Shown here: positions 1,423-63,467 of the stretch, in pieces
Position numbering within the stretch: the first letter of the stretch is position 1
Layout of the letters: each line of letters begins with the position of its first letter
Source of the DNA: Schistocephalus solidus
Lineage: Eukaryota > Platyhelminthes > Cestoda > Diphyllobothriidea > Diphyllobothriidae
DNA: 64,000 nt
Direction of reading: 5' to 3'
NCBI GenBank assembly: GCA_017591395.1
Contig: WEDG01004256.1
Coordinates: 1 to 64,000, forward strand
Program-made: the position numbers and the translations under genes
The notes under the pieces: model-generated
What the model was told of the DNA's origin: nothing
The model's input: the letters and a program-made list of their open reading frames with translations, nothing else
Database searches by the model: none

Positions 1423-2262
1423 ACCACCGGAGGCTAAGCTACATCAGCGCACACTACCTACACCAATGCATCGACAACACCCTCACAATCACCATTTACC
1501 AGAGTATATCATGGTGTCCTAGAAACCATGGCTGGGAAGTTTGCCAATCTGACGCTTCCACCAGACCACGCCGTCGGCTCAGTGTATGGGCTGACCAGTG
1601 GACTGGGAGTCAGATGGCGATGGCTGCTCCATATCCCCTGAGTAAGTGAATCCTTGTGTGTGCGTTATGGGGGCTGTGGCGCGCGAAGACGGGTACGCCG
1701 ATCCGTCAGCCAATGCGCCCACTCCCAAATCAGGCAACTGACCGGCTCGGACAGTGTCTGATGGTGGGGGTTGGGGAGAGAGTGAGGTCGACAGCTCAGC
1801 GCATGTTCCTCACTATAAAAAATCTGACGCACTTAAAACTATCACGGTGCGCTAAAAGCCGTGGATTGGAAGGTTGCCAGCTGACGGGATAACTCGGACC
1901 GCGTGGTCAGCCCAATGTGTGTTTTGTGTGGAGTGGCTGAGTGGCGGACTGAGAGTCAGGTTGCAATGGCTCCTTCTTAATTTGGCCTTTATGACACTCC
2001 CACTCCGCGGGATCCGAGCCAGGTGTGGTGGTACACCCAGGGGTGACTCCGGCCGCGCCAGCCACCTGTGACCTCTCCCATCTCCGGTCTTCTTGACTCT
2101 GTCTTGACACCGGGCTCAGGTGGGGGAGGAGGAGAGAGTGCGGTAGCTGCAGCGCAAGGCTACTATCACTTAAAACTAATTCACGCGCAAGTCACCGTCC
2201 CTGCACCACCTGGTATGGAGCATACGGTGGACCTCGTCGAAATCGACGGTCGAACTATCAAT
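1423..2262 (+). mobile_element. LINE family A copy 1, long 3' untranslated region
   Basis: This follows the ORF stop and matches, block by block, 22647-23518 and, with an internal deletion, 25693-25845. Shared blocks include ACCGGAGGCTAAG just after the stop, a CAATGTGTGTTTTGTGT segment near 1910, and the final block around GCATACGGTGGAC near 2220. All copies end at about the same point (CGAAATCGACGGTCGAAC), which marks the element's 3' end. No poly-A tail is visible. Open frames here on either strand are by-products of the repeat. Confidence 0.75.
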
Positions 2263-2859
2263 CAATAGTATTGCATTGGCAACTCCTCCCTCGGAAGGGG
2301 GGGTCGCACGACACTGCATAAGCTGGAGAGGGATGAAACTCAGTTGCAGCGGATAGCGAGGGGGTGATTAGTTGTTCATAAAAGTTGAGGAGGTGCTCGA
2401 AGTGCTCACACCAGCGATCGACCTTGGCCGAGGTGTCAACAATAAAGCCAGCATTTACATCGCGGACAGAGTCACTTACTGTCGAGGGCTTACCACTAAC
2501 TTGGCCGATTATTTGGTAGAGTTTGCGAGTGTCACCAACGTTTGAGGTTTGCTCCATGGACGTCGCTATTCCAGACCAATATTTCTGCCGGTCATCCCTA
2601 GCTGACTTTGCTGCCATTTTCCGGAGTTGATCGTTGTGGCACCTGGCTCGAGCCATCTGGGCAGACAACTGCTGGGTTTCTCCACTGATCCAGTCACTGC
2701 GGCACCACTGGGTGAATCCGAGAATTTTCTCAGCTACTCCATAGACGGATGTCTTCAGTGCTGACCCTGGCCACTGCTTTCTTCGTCGGCTCGGGTCATA
2801 AAATGGGACCGGATTTCTGTGTTCAGGGCCTCGGCGGTGCTGGGTTGCCGGATTTTTGC
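2263..2859 (-). pseudogene. LINE family B linker between endonuclease and RT
   Basis: The minus frame ends at 2258 and contains QQLSAQMARARCHNDQLRKM and VGDTRKLYQIIGQVSGKPST, then WCEHFEHLLNF. Such WCEHFxxLLN segments lie just before the RT domain in many LINE ORFs. The frame runs into a stop about 60 codons after that segment, where RT motif 1 should start. It continues the endonuclease domain above in broken frames. Confidence 0.7.
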
Positions 2860-3655
2860 GACATCGAGGCGTCTCACCCGGGGCATTTTGGGTGCAGATG
2901 AGAGATGTAGTTTCAGGCATGTGCAAACGAGGACATGGTCAGACACGTGGGCGTTACCAGTTTCGGCACCACGCATCGATCTGCTATCGTAAACCCAGCT
3001 ACGGAACCTTGAACCAAATAGAATGTAGTCGAGCTGACTCGCGGTATGACCATTGTTTGAATACCAAGTCAGCAGATCTTTGTGGCGGTGCTGAAAGCAC
3101 GTGTTCGTGACAAACAGTCGGTTCTGCTCAGTGAAATTCAGCCTTTTCTCACCATCGTCGCATTGAGAGCAAAGCCCAAACCGGTCTATAAGGTGACTGT
3201 TTGACGAGTCCTCGGATCCTGTCCTACCATTTCAATCCCCCGCAACAATCAACAGATCATGACGGGGTAGCCTATCTACTAACTCCTGCAACTGCGAGGA
3301 GAAGGCTTCTTTATAGCGCTGTTCGGCAGCTGACGTTGGTGCATACACGGAGACGACCGATATGTTGGTAAAGTGACCCTTCAGTCGCGCGTAAGCCATT
3401 CGGTCATTGACTGGTTCCCATACAAGTAGTGCACGGTTTGTTTGTTCCGAGAGGGCAATAGCCCCACCGTGTCTACCAGATGAGTCACGTGGGCTGCTAT
3501 GGTTTAGGGTGAAGTGGGAGTTTACTCCCGGGATTTTTATTGCTCTTGAACCTGAGTGGGGTATTCGGACTTCACCCACGTAGTACTAATGAAGACTGCA
3601 TGCCGTTAGACTGTGGGTACCTGAGGCCAGGAATGTTCGCACATTCTAGCATCCA
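2860..3655 (-). pseudogene. Endonuclease (EEP/APE-like) domain of LINE family B
   Basis: Reading down the minus strand, WNVRT-like (NVRTFLASG, 3650-3621) starts the exonuclease-endonuclease-phosphatase fold. EVRIPHSG follows near 3570, then RMAYARLKGHF and VVSVYAPT near 3390-3340, DLLIVAGD at 3240, TWYSNNGHTASQLDYILFGS near 3060-3000 and HVSDHVLVC near 2940. These are the family's conserved blocks in order, ending with the SDH motif that holds the catalytic Asp-His. The domain nicks target DNA to prime reverse transcription. Frames change near 3,580 and 3,235, and the WNVR block is preceded by a stop, so it no longer encodes one protein. Confidence 0.85.

Positions 3656-7974: not shown

Positions 7975-8042
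<68 letters not shown>
7975..8042. repeat. (AT)n microsatellite, left flank of ribozyme array 1
   Basis: About 34 uninterrupted AT dinucleotides directly abut the first unit of the tandem array. Confidence 0.98.
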
Positions 8043-8045
<3 letters not shown>

Positions 8046-8276
8046 ATAAATAATTTCTGAAATTATTAAGTGCAGGACATGGAGTCAGGTGCTTCGGACA
8101 TGACTTTTTTTAGGGTCAGACCCGAAAATTTCAATGAACATTTGGGTCGAAGACAATCAACCACTGTGGAATAACCACGTAATGCCCATTCTACAAACAA
8201 GTAGTACTACAAGTAGTATGAATCTTATATGGCAAAGACGTTATACCGTACTTCCGACATAGATACTAGCTAAAAG

Positions 8277-8349
8277 CCCAGACACGTGTTTCGCCGATGT
8301 TTCTGCTGCTGTATGACACAGCAACGAGGGGTTCGGCTCCTCAGTGGGT
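8277..8349 (-). ncRNA. Hammerhead ribozyme, locus 1 copy a
   Basis: The type I fold is read on the minus strand. Stem I has CCCA (8348-8345) pairing with TGGG (8280-8277). The core CTGAGGA is at 8344-8338. Helix II has GCCGA pairing with TCGGC, then an internal loop, then an apical hairpin TGCTGT/ACAGCA. GAAA is at 8292-8289. Stem III is a single C-G pair after A15.1-U16.1, with loop ACGT, and the triplet is GTC. Predicted cleavage is between 8281 and 8280. All residues required in the hammerhead core are present. Confidence 0.85.
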
Positions 8350-8631
8350 CCCCAGCGTTCTCTATGCGGTTTCTGGTATATGGACTCCAGAGAATAATCG
8401 GGTAAATAATTTCTGAAATTATTAAGTGCAGGACATGGAGTCAGGTGATTCGGACATGACTTTTTTTAGGGTCAGACCCGAAATTTCAATGAACATTTGG
8501 GTCGAAGACAATCAACCACTGTGGAATAACCACGTAATGCCCATTCTACAAACAAGTAGTACTACAAGTAGTATGAATCTGATATGGCAAAGACGTTATA
8601 CCGTACTTCCGACATAGATACTAGCTAAAAG

Positions 8632-8705
8632 CCCAGACACGTGTTTCGCCGATGTTTCTGCTGCTGTGTGACACAGCAACGAGGGAGTTCGGCTCCTCAG
8701 TGGGT
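8632..8705 (-). ncRNA. Hammerhead ribozyme, locus 1 copy b
   Basis: This has the same fold as copy a. The core CTGAGGA is at 8700-8694, GAAA at 8647-8644, the GTC triplet ends at 8636, and predicted cleavage is 8636/8635. The apical hairpin TGCTGTG/CACAGCA is perfect here. One extra base in the internal loop of helix II (the run near 8681-8687) is the only difference likely to matter, and it leaves all helices intact. RNA between the two cleavage sites would be 355 nt. Confidence 0.85.
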
Positions 8706-8917
8706 CCCCAGCGTTCTCTATGCGGTTTCTGGTATATGGACTCCAGAGAATAATCGGGTAAATAATTTCTGAAATTATTAAGTGCAGGACATGGAGTCAG
8801 GTGATTCGGACATGACTTTTTAGGGTCAGACCCGAAATTTCAATGAACATTTGGGTCGAAGACAATCAACCACTGTGGAATAACCACGTAATGCCCATTC
8901 TACAAACAAGTAGTACT

Positions 8918-8921
<4 letters not shown>

Positions 8922-8955
<34 letters not shown>
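8922..8955. repeat. (AT)n microsatellite, right flank of ribozyme array 1
   Basis: About 17 AT units follow the point where the third array unit stops. Confidence 0.97.
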
Positions 8956-32448: not shown

Positions 32449-33410
32449 TTAAGCCCAAAGCTTCAAACGCTCGAAGGTTACCTCGGTTCCACTATGAGGC
32501 TAGCGTTGGAAGGCAAACTTGGGTTGTACCACTATCGGTGTCTCTCCATATGGATGGGACTAAAGGCTGCTGCTTAGAGATCAAGTTCACTTGTGTTTTT
32601 GGTGTTTATCGGTGTTTACTGGTATTTATCGGTGTTTATCGGTGTTTACTGGTGTTTATCGGTGTCTCTCCATATGGATGGGACTAAAGGCTACTGCTTA
32701 GAGATCAAGTTCACTTGTGTATATTGGTGTTTATTGGTTTTTATCTGTGTTTATCGGTGTTTATCGGTGTTTACTGGTGTTTATCGGTGTCTCTCCATAT
32801 GGATGGGACTAAAGGCTGCTGCTTAGAGATCAAGTTCACTGGTGTTTATCGGTGTTTATTGGTGTTTATCAGTGTTTATTGGTGTTGACTGGTATTTATC
32901 GGTGTTTATCGGTGTTTACTGGTTTTTATCGGTGTCTCTCCATATAAATGGGACTAAAGGCTGCTGCTAAGAGATCAAGTTCACTGGTGTTTATCGGTGT
33001 TTATTGGTGTTTATCGGTGTTTATCGGTGTTAACTTGTGTTTATCGGTGTCTCTCCATATGGATGGGACTAAAGGCTGCTGCTTAGAGATAAATTTTACT
33101 GGTGTTTATTGGTTTTTATCGGTGTTTATCAGTGTTTACTGGTATTTATCAGCGTTTATCGGTGTTTATCGGTGTTTACTGGTGTTTATCGGTGTCTCTC
33201 CATGTGGATGGGACTAAGGGCTGCTGCTTACAGATCAAGTTTACTGGTTCTACTGAAGCCCGAAGCTGCAAACACTCGAATGTTACCTCGGTTCCACTCT
33301 GAGGCTAGCGTCGGAAGGCAAATTTAGGTTGTATCACAATCGGTGTCTTTCCATATGGATAGGACTAAAGGCTACTGCTTAGAGATCAAGTCTACTGGTT
33401 CGAGGTCTAC
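32449..33410. repeat. Nested minisatellite: GGTGTTTATC units within 115-151 bp higher-order repeats
   Basis: A 10-base unit, GGTGTTTAYY, is repeated in blocks. Each block ends with a fixed segment beginning GGTGTCTCTCCATATGGATG and containing GACTAAAGGC. That segment starts at 32537, 32661, 32786, 32931, 33046, 33191 and (as GGTGTCTTTCC) 33341. Both ends carry a diverged copy of a flank (ACCTCGGTTCCACT at about 32,481 and 33,285). Long open frames through here (repeating VFIGVYWCLSVF) are repeat artefacts. Confidence 0.9.

Positions 33411-46675: not shown

Positions 46676-46735
<60 letters not shown>
46676..46735. repeat. (AT)n microsatellite
   Basis: About 30 AT units abutting a SINE tail. 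Confidence 0.97.
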
Positions 46736-46738
<3 letters not shown>

Positions 46739-46827
46739 GAATAACATGACCGACAAAGGCAAGGGAGACTGGAATTGCCATTTCTGGTTTATTAGCCGTC
46801 ATCAGCCAGCCATACCCCACCCAAGTG
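46736..46827 (-). mobile_element. SINE tail fragment joined to ribozyme array 2
   Basis: Identical in layout to the first 90 bases of the SINE at 47,667 (AATAACATGACCGA, then GAATTGCCATTTCTGGTTTA). It stops at CCCACCCAAG, where the array unit begins. The head is missing. Confidence 0.75.
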
Positions 46828-46960
46828 ATTCGGGTCTGACCCTAAAAAGTCATGTCCGAATCACCTGACTCCATGTCCTGCACTTAATAATTTCAGAAAT
46901 TATTTACCCGATTATTCTCGGGAGTCCATATACCAGAAACCACATAGAGAACGCTGGGGG

Positions 46961-47033
46961 ACCCACTGAGGAGCCGAACCCCTCGTTACTGTGTCACACA
47001 GCAGCAGAAACATCGGCGAAACACGTGTCTGGG
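46961..47033 (+). ncRNA. Hammerhead ribozyme, locus 2 copy a
   Basis: Stem I is CCCA (46962-46965) with TGGG (47030-47033). Core CTGAGGA is at 46966-46972. Helix II is GCCGA with TCGGC, plus an apical hairpin TACTGTG/CACAGCA with one A-C mismatch. GAAA is at 47018-47021, then C, loop ACGT, and GTC. Predicted cleavage is after 47029. Confidence 0.85.
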
Positions 47034-47314
47034 CTTTTAGCTAGTATCTATGTCGGAAGTACGGTATAACGTCTTTGCCATATAAGATTCATACTACTTG
47101 TAGTACTACTTGTTTGTAGAATGGGCATTACGTGGTTATTCCACAGTGGTTGATTGTCTTCGACCAAAATGTTCATTGACATTTCGGGTCTGACCCTAAA
47201 AATTTATGTCCGAATCACCTGACTCCATGTCCTGCACTTAATAATTTCAGAAATTATTTACCCGATTATTCTCTGGAGTTCATATACCAGAAACCGCATA
47301 GAGAACGCTGGGGG

Positions 47315-47387
47315 ACCCACTGAGGAGCCGAACCCCTCGTTGCTGTGTCACACAGCAGCAGAAACATCGGCGAAACACGTGTCTGGG
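47315..47387 (+). ncRNA. Hammerhead ribozyme, locus 2 copy b
   Basis: Core CTGAGGA is at 47320-47326, GAAA at 47372-47375, and the GTC triplet ends at 47383 with predicted cleavage after it. Stem I pairs 47316-47319 with 47384-47387. Helix II has both the GCCGA/TCGGC stem and a perfect seven-pair apical hairpin (TGCTGTG, loop TCA, CACAGCA). Distance to the cleavage site of copy a is 354 nt. Confidence 0.88.
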
Positions 47388-47616
47388 CTTTTAGCTAGTA
47401 TCTATGTCGGAAGTACGGTATAACGTCTTTGCCATATCAGATTCATACTACTTGTAGTACTAATTGTTTGAAGAATGGGCATTACGTTGTTATTCCACAG
47501 TGGTTGATTGTCTTCGACCCAAATGTTCATTGAAATTTCGGGTCTGACCCTAAAAAGTCATGTCCGAAGCACCTGACTCCATGTCCTGCACTTAATAATT
47601 TCAGAAATTATTTACC

Positions 47617-47618
<2 letters not shown>

Positions 47619-47666
<48 letters not shown>
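47619..47666. repeat. (AT)n microsatellite
   Basis: About 24 AT units between array 2 and a full SINE. Confidence 0.97.
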
Positions 47667-47669
<3 letters not shown>

Positions 47670-47834
47670 GAATAACATGACCGAAAAAGGCGAGGGAGAC
47701 TGGAATTGCCATTTCTGGTTTATTAGCCGTCATCAGCCAGCCATACCCAACCCCAGGCGCTGCGGCGCCCGAGGCTCAAACTCGCGACCTGTTGGGCAGA
47801 AGTCTAACGCTCTACCCGATGCGCCACGAGCTCG
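47667..47834 (-). mobile_element. tRNA-derived SINE, copy 3 (best preserved)
   Basis: Minus strand, from 47,834: A box in GTGGCGCATCGGGTAGAGCG, an anticodon-arm remnant TTAGACTTCTG, B box region GAGTTTGAGCC. Then the body GGGTATGGCTGGCTGATGAC and CCAGAAATGGCAATTCCAG, with a tail ending in the AT tract. The head resembles tRNA-Arg(UCU), whose D-arm also starts GTGGCGCA. Confidence 0.78.
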
Positions 47835-47997
47835 TTTTCTTGCCAGTTTTGATCAGGAATATTAGATATGGTAACATGTCATGTTATTCTGCCTTTATCC
47901 TTAGCTGTCTTGCGGCTGCTGGCGGGGCTCGAGAGTTAGCCCCAAAGCACAACGGGACGAGTGAGTCCTGTAACCGATCGGCGAGCGCCTACTTACC

Positions 47998-48093
47998 GTA
48001 TATATTTAACTTAATTTAGAGGCCTGTTTACCAACTCATATATATATATATATGAGTTAGGAAACAGGCTTCTAAATTAAGTTAAATATATAC
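47998..48093. repeat. 96-bp near-perfect palindrome with (AT)n centre
   Basis: Two 48-base arms, GTATATATTTAACTTAATTT... and its inverse, match at 45 of 48 positions. They meet in the AT run at 48,038-48,053. It could extrude a cruciform or form a long RNA hairpin. Confidence 0.9.
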
Positions 48094-48263
48094 GAGCTCA
48101 GTTATTTTGGAATTTAAAAAATGTGTTTAATAAAGTTTCGTCATCCAAGGTAAGAAAGACGTGCAAAAGCTGTCAACTATATCACTTTCTATACAACAAG
48201 GGAAACCACTAATTATTCCAGAAAATGTGTTGAGATGGAACATGTATCGCCAAAATTGTTGAT

Positions 48264-49285: not shown

Positions 49286-49785
49286 TCGGTATGGATGAGT
49301 TGTATGGCCGCCTTAATAGAACACGGAAATAGGAACGCAAGCCCACTTAAAATAGCTAACCTTGCCATACATTTTGAGAAGGGTAAGTATTATTGTGTAT
49401 TAACCCTAACCTAAAACTGAACTGTAACCGCAACCCTAACCCTAACCCTAAACCCTAAAGTTAACATGAACCCAAACCTTAACCCTTAACATCATTCTGA
49501 CCCTAATCCCAACTCTGATCTTAACCCTAACCTTATACCTAACCCTAAACTTAACCTCAACTCTAACCCTGATGCTAAACCTAATTTCTCAGGAAGTTGG
49601 CACGAAGCCATATGTATTGCGGGTGGTTCCTGATTCCGTGTTCTGTTTAACCCTAAACTTAACCTCAACTCTAACCCTGATGCTAAACCTAATTTCTCAG
49701 GAAGTTGGCACGAAGCCATATGTATTGCGGGTGGTTCCTGATTCCGTGTTCTGTTTAAGCGGCCATAGAAGTCATCCCTACCACC
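49286..49785. mobile_element. TIR element with telomere-like core, copy 3, with internal duplication
   Basis: The left end is GGTATGGATGAG then TTGTATGGCCGCCTTAA; the right end, inverted, is GGTAGGGATGAC then TTCTATGGCCGC. The core, 49,390-49,600, is rich in TAACCC (an exact TAACCCTAACCCTAA run near 49,434). A 108-base segment starting at 49,541 is repeated exactly from 49,649 to about 49,756 and includes the right subterminal part. Confidence 0.78.
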
Positions 49786-59789: not shown

Positions 59790-60157
59790 AATACACTACC
59801 AGCCACTGGTGCAAATGGTCCGAGTCTGTTCCTGCCCCAAGCACCAGCTTCGGTACCCTGTAGCCTTCTAACGTATACAGTCCTAACTAAGCCATCGTGA
59901 CTCTCTTTACATCTCTCAATCACCCCTATTGGCCACTTTTAACGAGGCATGTGCTCACCAGTCACTAAGACCACGCCACCTGATTTCAGCTCTCGGAACG
60001 CTCGAAGCCATTTTGTACGTTGTTGTTGTGTAGGGAGGTATTCTTTCGTACAACGTCGCCAAAAGACACTCGCCAAATAGTGTATTTGTCTCAACCAAGC
60101 ATGCGTAAACAAATCCGCAGTGCTGGGCAGCCCCCGACTTTTTCGCATCAATAGCAA
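59790..60157 (-). pseudogene. BEL/Pao C-terminal domain (DUF5641-like)
   Basis: LFTHAWLRQIHYLASVFWRR and EYLPTQQQRTKWLRAFRELK, then VVLVTGEHMPR and, after a stop, KWPIGVIERCKESHDGLVRT and VYVRRLQGTEAG. This matches the segment after the integrase core in BEL/Pao polyproteins. Confidence 0.78.
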
Positions 60158-60459
60158 ACTGTTCGGTGTAAGGGATTTCAGATCATTACTGTCTGATGCT
60201 GGTGGAATCAGCGGTCTGTTGTTTAATACACGTTCTACTTGTACAAAAAGGGTACTGAGTTGCTCATCGGTTATGCATTGCTCGTTGCACAGGGAAATCA
60301 GAATTCCTCACACTGACCTGATCACATGCTCTCATACTCCTTCGCGATGGCTAGCGGCGGGTTGGGTTAAACGGCCACTGTATCTCTGAAGCGAGTAATT
60401 TATCTGACACATTCCTATGATCCAAATTTTGTATGTCGCTTCGAATCTCTCACACTGAT

Positions 60460-60690
60460 CCAACAAAATCGGTTTCATTGTCACTGTAGATGTCAGTTGG
60501 CCTTTCTGGCCTACTAACAAACCTCATCAGGCATTTGAGAAAGGAATCCGTAGAACGAATAGAGGCCACCTCAAGATGTATGGCCCTAGTCTATAGGCAA
60601 CTAAACAAGCAGCCATAGCGTTTCTCATAAGACTGTCCACGTTTGGTCGTAAAGGGTCCAAAATAGTCTACTCCAAACACATTTGAAAGG
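60460..60690 (-). pseudogene. BEL/Pao integrase catalytic core
   Basis: VDYFGPF near 60,670 holds the first catalytic Asp. TRAIHLEVASIRSTDSFL and PTDIYSDNETDFVG (Asp in SDN near 60,478) follow. A stop lies between the first block and TRAIHLE. Confidence 0.8.
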
Positions 60691-60842
60691 ATACCATCCC
60701 ACCTATGTTTTTTGTAAGGGCAGCTGGGCCATCATCTGTGCTTGAGGTGACCTGAATTTACGTCTGCGCGATAAACATGCTCTGATGACACGCTTGGCTG
60801 AAGCACTTCCCTTTACGATCCAAAACTTCTGACGGATAGCAC

Positions 60843-61154
60843 CTAACATGACGCCCAGCAGTACCCTTCCAGTTCATGAAAATTGTTGATTATCAAACCC
60901 GTTATGTGGTGCCGGTTTGGAAGAATCGCTGGATGTTTACATGACTCACAGTAACTCGAGTAACTCAGGCGACCTCCAACGCACATTATTCCACTAATCA
61001 GAACTGGATACAACCTCCCCAAACTGCTAGATCTAACGGTTTTTCCTTGACAATCCACATTCATTTGCGTAGATCGGATAACAGTTAGTTCTGGAGAAAA
61101 GCTCTCGCACTGTACATGCTTTATCAAACCATCACTAGCCTGGCGCATTTCCAA
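60843..61154 (-). pseudogene. BEL/Pao integrase zinc-binding domain
   Basis: LGRLYPVLISGIMCVGGRLS, then HPAILPNRHHITGLIINNFH, the H2C2-type N-terminal domain of the integrase. It removes and joins cDNA ends together with the core domain that follows. Confidence 0.8.
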
Positions 61155-61184
61155 AAAACCTGAATATAGCCCTACATCAATGTC

Positions 61185-61870
61185 TCATGAGGTGCCTTGC
61201 CGATAGAGACTACGATATACTGCTTGAAGCGCATTAGCCAGATCACGGCCATTTTTATCCTTGTCCAACTTGATAAACTCATAACCAATTTTTTCCAAAC
61301 TGTTGCTTTGAGTTAAAACAAGAAATTGAGCTGTTGTCCTTTTGAATTCCAAGCCTTCGGGTTGTCCCACTGGTGGTTGTACATGCCATTCGCTTCCAGG
61401 TCGAACCAAAAATTCGGGACCGCGCAAACATCTCCGTACGAGCGTGAAGTTGCACGTACCTCGAGAAGCTATATCTGCTGGATTAACATCCAAACTCACG
61501 TATCTCCACTGCGAAGTTGCAGACAGGTCAGTTGGTCACAAATATGCAGAACCTGATTGATTCATTGTGTATATAGGACTATAATTTAGTCGGTCCAGGA
61601 AGTTATTGTTTGGAAGTACGTATAAGTAGCTGATCGGATGAGATCGGCAACGTGCACAGCCAGAGTGGCAGCCGCCAACTCTAAACGTGGTATCGAGATG
61701 ACTTTGAGGGCTGCAACATGTGGTTTTGAATAAACGAGTGAACAACACAAGTTTCGTGTGTCGTTAATGAAACAAGCATATGCAACTGCACTGTATGCTA
61801 CTTCTGAAGCATCACAAAACACGTGTTTTTCGACCCGGATTAGACCACTGATACCTTTGGGCTTAGACAT
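61185..61870 (-). pseudogene. BEL/Pao RNase H and linker
   Basis: VFCDASEVAYSAVAYACF carries the DAS motif of the family's RNase H. ISIPRLELAAATL follows. After a frame break, SLDVNPADIASRG and RGPEFLVRPGSEWHVQPP mark the segment between RNase H and integrase. Confidence 0.8.
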
Positions 61871-61947
61871 CGAGCCAGCTGAAGAGTTTTCAGACTTCGT
61901 AAATTAAAGATCCAGTACTCCCAACGAGAGCTCTCGATGGCAGGTAA

Positions 61948-62765
61948 TTACTCATCCCAGCTCAGTGCAATTTTGCATAAGGATTGCAGTAAGCCCTTTC
62001 CTGGTATAAACCAAGGGGAAACAAAACCCAGAGGGTCATAAAAGGGAGGAAAAACAAGACAGAATGTCCCTAAAAGTAAACGATTTTGTAGGCATATTGA
62101 TATTGAATGCCAGAATATCGGAATCCGTATCCCACTGCAACCCCAAAGTTCGTTTCGTTGGTAGTGGATTAACAGCACCAGCTCACAGGCTAGAAGAACG
62201 TTGGGTCGCATTGATGACTGAAAGTACGCGTCGGTCATTGGACGCCCAGTTCCGCATACGAAAGCCACCTTGAGAAAGTAGTGCACAAATTTTGCCCACA
62301 GACGCTTGGCAGAATTTGCATCACGCAACGAAATCAGACAAATCATACAGGTAAATACTTTGATGAATCGCTTTGCAAGTTGATGAAGAGTAGAATGAAC
62401 CTAAATATTCAACTGTTTTTTTTGTAAAGCAAAGGTGACACAAAAGGGCGAATAAGTTAATCCAAATGGGTGAGATGTCCACTGGAATTCAACTTGCTCC
62501 CCTGTCGAAACTTCACTTTCCCACCGCAAGAATTTCAGAGCAGGTCGATCAACTGGATGCAGTTTCACTTGCAAGGGCATATCTTCTATGTCCCCTGCCA
62601 CTGCAACCCACTCAAGACGGAAACACAAAAACACACTTCATAGCTTTGCGTTTAGGTCAGGTCCTTGATAGAGTTGTTCATTAAGAGACACGCTTTGGCC
62701 CTTTGCAACACAACACGGATTTTTTCTGGTTTCCGGGGGTTGACACCATGGTTGGTGAGGTAAGT
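61948..62765 (-). pseudogene. BEL/Pao reverse transcriptase
   Basis: WYLPHQPWC and SLNEQLYQGPDLNAKL start the domain near 62,765. GDIEDMPLQVKLHPVDRPAL and FQWTSHPFGLTYSPFCVTFA follow (motifs A and B regions). The catalytic box expected as YVDD reads Y-L-Y-D at 62353-62342, losing one Asp. GGFRMRNWASNDRRV is in a shifted frame near 62,260. The connection ends FYDPLGFVSPWFIPGKG and LSWDE near 61,950. At least two frameshifts. Confidence 0.82.
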
Positions 62766-62774
62766 ACCAGTGTC

Positions 62775-63380
62775 TTAGAACTGGTGACGTTTTGTTGGCA
62801 CCAACTCGCTCGATGTATCCCTTCTACATGTAGGAACGGAATGTTTGCTAATATTCTCTAAATAGTTCACAGCGCAGTGAGAGACAGCGTTCTGTTTGAG
62901 TCTGTCACGTGGAGATCCTCGCAGCATCCAGCCAAGCAATGTTTTCACAGCGAATGGTTTCCTTTTGCAACCCAGGCGTTGGCCAAGTACCCAGTGAGCT
63001 TCCGCGATATCATTTCCAATGAGTATGCCAACCTCGCAATAAGTGAGCTTGTCGAACATTATGCCGTCCGGGTGTGACCAAGAAGATGCTCCTTTCTTAA
63101 TGGACGGTTTCGCGCGCAGTGGCAAGTCCTCAACCACTACAGTCCTTTCAATCTCAACTGACTCAGTTTTATTCATGGGCAGCACTCTTAGACCGCTGAC
63201 TTCCAAGTTACATTCGATTGAGCCACTTAAGGTGTTTATTGTCAATGCCGTTGGCTTTGTGAAGACTCCATTTTCGATTAGTAGCTCACGTTTTATTATC
63301 GTGACATCCAATCCATTGTCCAAAAATACACAAGTTTCGACGTTTCCAGCTGGTGTAGCCAACTGGATGGGGATAACCAC
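62775..63380 (-). pseudogene. BEL/Pao aspartic protease (DUF1758-like)
   Basis: An open frame of about 200 codons. The active-site region reads VFLDNGLDVTIIKREL, where the family has D-S/T-G-S: the Asp is kept, but the next residues are N and L instead of S/T and S. It continues VGILIGNDIAEAHWVLGQRL and KTLLGWMLRG, both conserved in this family. Confidence 0.82.
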
Positions 63381-63467
63381 CGGTCATGATGGTACATACA
63401 TAACTCTAGTCAGGGCACACATTCATTCATCTCCCAATGTCCGTTGCTCGTTCTCCGAAAACACTGT

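Follow-up and report, generated by a model that had tools for sequence, protein, structure and literature searches.

The closest described systems are the metazoan non-LTR retrozymes (Cervera and de la Pena 2020), which are known from platyhelminths. As described there (PMC7229834), these are non-coding tandem units of about 170-400 nt with a type I hammerhead and a G+C content below 50%, present as dimers to long multimers in thousands of copies together with co-resident Penelope-like elements (PLEs). The same report proposes PLEs as retrozyme mobilisers, from the shared hammerheads, the tandem form and the co-existence of the two. The traits described for PLEs are 5' truncations, second copies in tandem, partial copies in inverted orientation and 3' ends with short extensions (PMC8969392). 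The flatworm repeat known as Sm-alpha or the W-element, from schistosomes, is about 335 bp long with a type I hammerhead (PMC8490949, PMC4918200), and the schistosome hammerhead repeat contains tRNA sequence (PMC4918200). Plant LTR retrozymes are non-autonomous and have hammerheads and circular RNA (PMC4918200); their hammerheads, of type III, are placed in LTRs and their target duplications are of 4 bp (PMC4918200, PMC7229834).

How does the 354-bp tandem repeat of the tapeworm Schistocephalus solidus compare? The element is an added member of the known metazoan retrozymes and shares the characters listed for them above. It departs from the published description, as far as the available portions go, in its insertion into TA microsatellites, two fixed 3' entry points, head-to-head pairs and junctions of a kind shared with a PLE (PMC7229834), and the helix II of its ribozyme has a long extra hairpin. 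No report of this tapeworm family, or of TA-targeting retrozymes, was found in the literature searched, which lay mostly outside subscription journals. Kinship to Sm-alpha is one of geometry, taken from descriptions, and no tRNA match was found in the tapeworm 354-bp unit. The element resembles the plant retrozymes in its hammerheads, its presumed circular RNA and its apparently non-autonomous nature, and differs from them in hammerhead type, in the position of the hammerhead and in target duplication. With PLEs it has the first three of the traits above in common, and its two entry points recall the 3' extensions (PMC8969392); unlike a PLE it has no protein, carries a full hammerhead with helix III, and shows no sequence similarity linking its unit to the PLE described below (one 16-nt match, E 0.82).

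The window, by which we mean the whole 64-kb stretch of DNA analyzed, has four hammerhead motifs:

46962..47033, + strand: copy 1 of the type I hammerhead motif, with the cut predicted after 47029
47316..47387, + strand: copy 2 of the type I hammerhead motif, with the cut predicted after 47383
8277..8348, - strand: hammerhead motif of a second array, predicted cleavage between 8281 and 8280
8632..8704, - strand: hammerhead motif of the second array, predicted cleavage between 8636 and 8635

The two on the + strand had been picked out in a sequence-only reading, which took them for hammerheads of type I, carried by a tandem repeat whose RNA product would be 354 nt long; as a claim about sequence this is supported. 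That the repeat is a mobile retrozyme of TA microsatellites goes beyond what that reading said. All the elements named for copy 1 lie at the positions given for them, namely CCCA (46962-46965), CTGAGGA (46966-46972), GCCGA...TCGGC, GAAAC-ACGT-GTC up to 47029 and TGGG (47030-47033), and the second copy follows 354 bp downstream, up to 47383. The predicted cuts after 47029 and 47383 would thus release a 354-nt monomer. The apical hairpin was likewise found, with pairing other than the seven pairs claimed: copy 2 folds with nine, one of them G-U, and copy 1 has an A-C mismatch. The tiny helix III (GAAAC-N4-GUC) has the geometry of that in the schistosome Sm-alpha ribozyme. The computed fold contains an extended helix I, helix II and some pairing at the short helix III, and the core CUGANGA...GAAA...UH, three helices and an open helix I make the motif one of type I. 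The four copies in the window show no change in the core, the CCCA/TGGG pairs, helix III or lower helix II. The pattern CTGANGAG...CGAAAC-N4-GTC has four matches in the window as against a mean of 0.00 over 100 shuffles.

In the covariance search proposed in the same reading, the Rfam model RF00163 (Hammerhead_1) matches both + strand copies at 22.8 bits (E 0.0079 for 901 bases), which is below its gathering score of 34; across all four motifs, for which short stretches were searched, scores are 22.7-22.8 bits with E about 0.01. An Rfam scan of the whole window at gathering scores lists nothing, and this reflects the threshold rather than absence of the motif. In the alignment, 37 unshown bases fall in helix II versus 6 in the model, and these bases form a hairpin of their own.

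The motifs belong to two arrays, which together with their surroundings are as follows:

46829..47620, + strand: putative retrozyme array of 2.24 units, beginning (5') at unit position 154 and ending (3') at position 237 (ACCCGAT)
47030..47383, + strand: sole complete 354-nt unit of this array (the monomer and predicted RNA product), 43% G+C
47619..47666: (AT)24 adjoining the 3' end of the + array, presumed target microsatellite
46677..46735: (TA)29 upstream of the + array, presumably the target microsatellite in its left copy
46736..46825: tail half of a SINE, the left copy in a probable long target-site duplication, 95.6% identical to 47667-47756
47667..47840, - strand: tRNA-type SINE (by eye), split by the + array; 47667-47756 is the right duplication copy
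8041..8924, - strand: second array of the same repeat family, 2.5 units, 3' end likewise at unit position 237
7976..8042: (TA)33 adjoining the 3' end of the second array
8922..8955: (AT)17 adjoining the 5' end of the second array

Pairwise differences among the six part-units in these arrays amount to 1.2-4.0% and are mostly private changes, and the window's four longest TA runs are all found at the arrays or no more than 100 bp from them. The matching 90-base copies around the + array, each with a TA run before it, are best read as an unusually long target duplication. This is a singular case: the best match at 16 other loci scores at most 13 versus 78 at 46.7-47.8 kb, and no duplication outside TA was found at those 16, leaving 46677-47756 as the one locus of 17 to have it. 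The idea that array and SINE form one composite element was dropped, because the SINE reads best as a single interrupted copy with a duplicated tail and because the duplication is present at 1 of 17 loci. The SINE body (47667-47840 on the - strand, and other copies) contains CTGATGACGGCTAATAA(A/G)CCAGAAA, which by eye resembles a hammerhead core (CTGATGA, stem, GAAA) without an identifiable cleavage strand. Close by, at 47997-48094, is a near-perfect palindrome with 49-nt arms, 94% complementary and without spacer, with a TA run at its center; it can be described as MITE-like or as a hairpin relic.

A search of the genome (604 Mb in 8,019 contigs) with the hammerhead core pattern gave 5,279 matches (2,711 + 2,568) versus 6 (1 + 5) for the reversed control. 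For the sample of loci, 40 of 1,144 candidates were scored, ranked by likeness to the window unit, so that young copies are over-represented; the 37 loci analyzed are 35 of the 36 other loci listed (C4649 was left out) plus the window's two. Among 155 near-full ribozyme copies (L031-L050 and the window), a permissive core is intact in 139, and a strict core that includes the fixed helix bases in 100. For the 17 helix pairs, 97.2% of cells are paired (140 distinct of 216 copies, from 35 loci and the window), as against 24-49% when the partner is slid by 1-3 bases. Pairing is kept in 86 of the 153 cells that depart from the reference, in six of them via changes on both sides (an apical pair, T-A to C-G, in three rows). 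Since the structure was derived from the same family, this pairing points to conservation more than to independent covariation. The 19-nt ribozyme core had no match in viral or bacterial/archaeal contig collections, nor did the window array match phage sequences. Taken together, tandem non-coding units of 354 bp and 43% G+C, each with a type I hammerhead, are dispersed in many copies by retrotransposition-like insertion, as in non-LTR retrozymes. To judge from its sequence, then, the repeat is likely to be a metazoan non-LTR retrozyme, a non-coding and non-autonomous mobile element of TA microsatellites; this estimate covers jointly the RNA circle and PLE reading set out below.

Where do the copies end? 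Among 41 3' ends at the 37 loci that are not cut by the edge of the fetched sequence, 25 are at unit positions 53-55 (GCCATAT), 10 at 233-237 (ACCCGAT) and one at 27, and the other five fit none of these three positions. When only flank bases outside the array are counted, a TA run of at least 8 nt starts within 3 nt of 29 of the 41 ends and one of at least 4 nt within 3 nt of 36, the TA being shorter than 8 nt at 12. At L031-L065, 38 TA runs of at least 8 repeats lie within 150 bp of arrays versus 9 in 60,481 other bases. The clustering of end positions was assessed with arrays of at least 90% identity, those of lower identity being dropped. In this set 28 of 32 3' ends fall in two 6-nt bins, the maximum in 1000 uniform simulations being 9, whereas the 5' ends (n = 30) are no more clustered than uniform, with six in the best two bins, a number reached in 595 of 1000 simulations. 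Such scattered 5' ends do not suggest LTRs. Of 38 uncut 5' ends, nine are joined to TA and the others adjoin an inverted arm, a SINE or unique sequence. Microhomology alone does not explain the entry points, because ATATA at unit position 253 matches (TA)n as well as 51-55 does, yet it is used by none of the 32 3' ends scored; it lies near several 5' ends. Only one of the 41 3' ends, that of a decayed array (L045, 72% identity), is within 5 nt of the ribozyme cut site, which speaks against templates in the form of cut linear monomers.

Ten of the 37 loci have arrays in head-to-head pairs (5' to 5', with the 3' ends outward) and two have tail-to-tail pairs, with TA-rich sequence between. At six of the ten the two arms use different start points, 53-55 in one and 233-237 in its partner; one arm is a mere 39-55 nt at L036 and L053, and at L031 the arms are 62 bases apart. 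The same preference is seen by eye among the core matches listed genome-wide, where opposite neighbors within 1 kb are head to head in nine cases and tail to tail in one. We read these pairs, whose topology is plain, as the probable outcome of a break in self-complementary (TA)n at which both ends acted as primers. To see whether the two arms could derive from one RNA molecule, they were compared at nine of the ten head-to-head loci (L050 was absent), of which identity and length filters removed three; of the remaining six, L042 alone has arms that are clearly more alike than either is to other loci.

Could the family be ordinary satellite DNA, spread by unequal crossing-over, with the hammerhead as a passenger? 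Tandem arrays would be expected from this, including the long ones at L045 and L049, each read for more than 15 units, as would the likeness of units in most arrays. Satellite spread nevertheless seems very improbable, given that many unrelated places have short arrays (1.2-3 units) whose 3' ends are fixed, whose 5' ends scatter and whose joins have TA, that head-to-head pairs outnumber tail-to-tail ones, and that a high proportion of ribozyme cores is intact.

In the 160 full units with at least 94% identity across the 37 loci (copies below this value were excluded), the distance is 0.0221 within a locus and 0.0274 between loci, and none of 500 permutations was as low. Young arrays consist of almost identical units; at L048 the 11 full units differ by 0.0024 among themselves versus 0.0167 to other loci. 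Six of 27 multi-unit loci (L038, L040, L045, L051, L056 and L063) show no greater likeness among their own units than to units elsewhere. A tree of the units has 83 changes of locus compared with a mean of 131 for shuffled labels, the minimum being 36. Differences within an array, examined in 12 loci, mostly affect one unit at a time, and some variants are carried by every unit of a locus. This likeness fits repeated passage round one RNA circle, with local homogenization as an alternative. A long uncut multimeric RNA could also be the template, and 3' ends away from the cut site would suit it too, as would a variant common to the last units of both window arrays (alignment column 189). The other shared site, column 55, contradicts it, and the pattern of variants in the 12 loci goes against it, as does the 0.24% internal difference at L048, which is what a single circle would give. 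We accordingly consider a multimeric template unlikely, and a circle the better account.

What enzyme might copy such circles? Reverse transcriptase (RT) homologs score RVT_1, and so does P0062, a PLE-type RT from Spirometra. L070, located through its GIY-YIG match, has an RT 81% like P0062 and, in the same place, a GIY-YIG endonuclease at 28.5 bits, above cut-off, and so has the RT and GIY-YIG combination of a PLE; its 3' end is at the sole TA run of at least four repeats within its 4.5 kb. Pieces like P0062 are present in the flanks of six retrozyme loci (L034, L039, L046, L047, L054 and L065), and the flank of L060 has an N-terminal piece of related proteins. The 3' region of L070 gave 2,151 first-look candidates, of which 40 near-full copies were scored, the 39 besides L070 being 98-99% identical. 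Junctions were classed by full flank for 40 copies, that is, 38 of the scored near-full ones (without L070 and L047) and two partial ones; ten continue head-to-tail into a next copy and 30 are 3' ends. These ends are divided equally, 15 each, between site A (CTTTCTTC) and a site B that lies about 40 nt further on. Every one of the 30 joins a TA run, of 5-56 nt, and in 27 the run is at least 11 nt; L047 and L070 likewise end at site A. At L088 and L100 the TA run of the PLE is followed by what by eye is the tail of a retrozyme, with ends at 53-55 and 237.

The topologies of the PLE are also those of the retrozyme. Its units of about 2.66 kb form head-to-tail arrays, up to five units long among the matches listed, without a TA run at those joins that were read; the tandems in C6387 (four copies) and C4005 (five) have a spacing of about 2,664 bp. 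Copies in C1752, C6444, C1505 and C1499 are placed head to head, this being a statement of placement only. In the 419-bp tail the C6387 tandem differs by 1.8 bases on average inside versus 6.3 between loci, the C5519 pair by 1 and the C4005 tandem by 5.0. Four of five tails inspected by eye (the exception is L065) have CTGA(C/T)GA...GAAA, a possible minimal hammerhead, in the last ~75 nt before site A; single-strand folds do not bring it out clearly, and Rfam lists no hammerhead there. Two other observations concern PLE pieces. A common stretch, CTTGTATGCTTYTGAAACGTCAGGACAATACACC, lies beside PLE pieces and TA runs at about 600-650 of L054 and 490-535 of L065, and L034 has at 1273-2055 another endonuclease of PLE-like type, with a T-rich end and then (AT)45 behind it, which may represent another PLE family ending in TA.

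Alternatively, an RTE-like LINE, presumed to partner the SINEs, might do the copying of the retrozyme. LINEs are present in the genome and in the window, the array at 46829-47620 splits a SINE, and at six fetched loci (L033, L034, L036, L044, L060 and L063) SINE copies are followed by TA runs. Against this, the five other SINE copies of the window do not end in TA, whereas all 30 of the PLE 3' ends read join it; tandem and head-to-head placement is seen in the PLE as well, and tandem and inverted partial copies are published PLE traits (PMC8969392). A LINE is therefore an improbable source of the enzyme. The PLE is the likely one because it inserts like the retrozyme in the same genome; a common target and topology are no proof of a shared enzyme.

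We propose that RNA circles made by the ribozyme are reverse-transcribed at TA breaks by the machinery of the co-resident PLE, and judge this likely, with cleavage, circles and enzyme as its conjectural parts. Transcripts of tandem units would cut themselves at each hammerhead, as the intact motifs suggest, giving 354-nt monomers that would then be closed into circles. An RtcB-type tRNA ligase is best at closing RNA circles in vitro in published metazoan cases. The PLE machinery would open a TA microsatellite, and the free (AT)n end would prime reverse transcription on the circle at preferred A-U sites, ~51-55 or ~236-237, which would produce the 3' ends observed. The enzyme would then go round the template for anything from part of a turn to many turns and stop anywhere, leaving the scattered 5' ends that are seen; where both ends of the TA break prime, two arms would meet head to head. 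The autonomous PLE might itself move via ribozyme-made RNA circles. A single circle-to-microsatellite insertion system, often primed from both break ends, would then have a small form in the retrozyme and a large one in the PLE; this extension is possible, and we regard it as somewhat doubtful. PLEs had already been proposed as the machinery that copies animal retrozymes. That two elements of one genome show the same target, kind of entry point and topologies makes this proposal open to test, in that the endonuclease of the PLE would be expected to nick TA runs and its RT to start on the circle at the two sites. A genome with more than 5,000 matches to the hammerhead core pattern is suited to such tests.

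The window has several further repeats and elements. A higher-order minisatellite of GTGTTTATCG decamers with periods of 115-260 bp is present at 32533-33248, and degenerate telomere-like TAACCC/ACCCTAA repeats are found internal to the contig at 38495-38541, 49401-49758 and 55117-55178, with an exact 108-bp duplication (49540-49758) within such a stretch. A broken LINE lies at 2258-3585 on the - strand; its frame 2258-2938 is akin to diphyllobothriid proteins, 60 of its 61 protein matches being from Spirometra erinaceieuropaei, Sparganum proliferum, Schistocephalus solidus or Dibothriocephalus latus. Finally, pieces of a BEL/Pao-type polyprotein, with matches to Peptidase_A17 and DUF5641, are found at 59939-63383 on the - strand.
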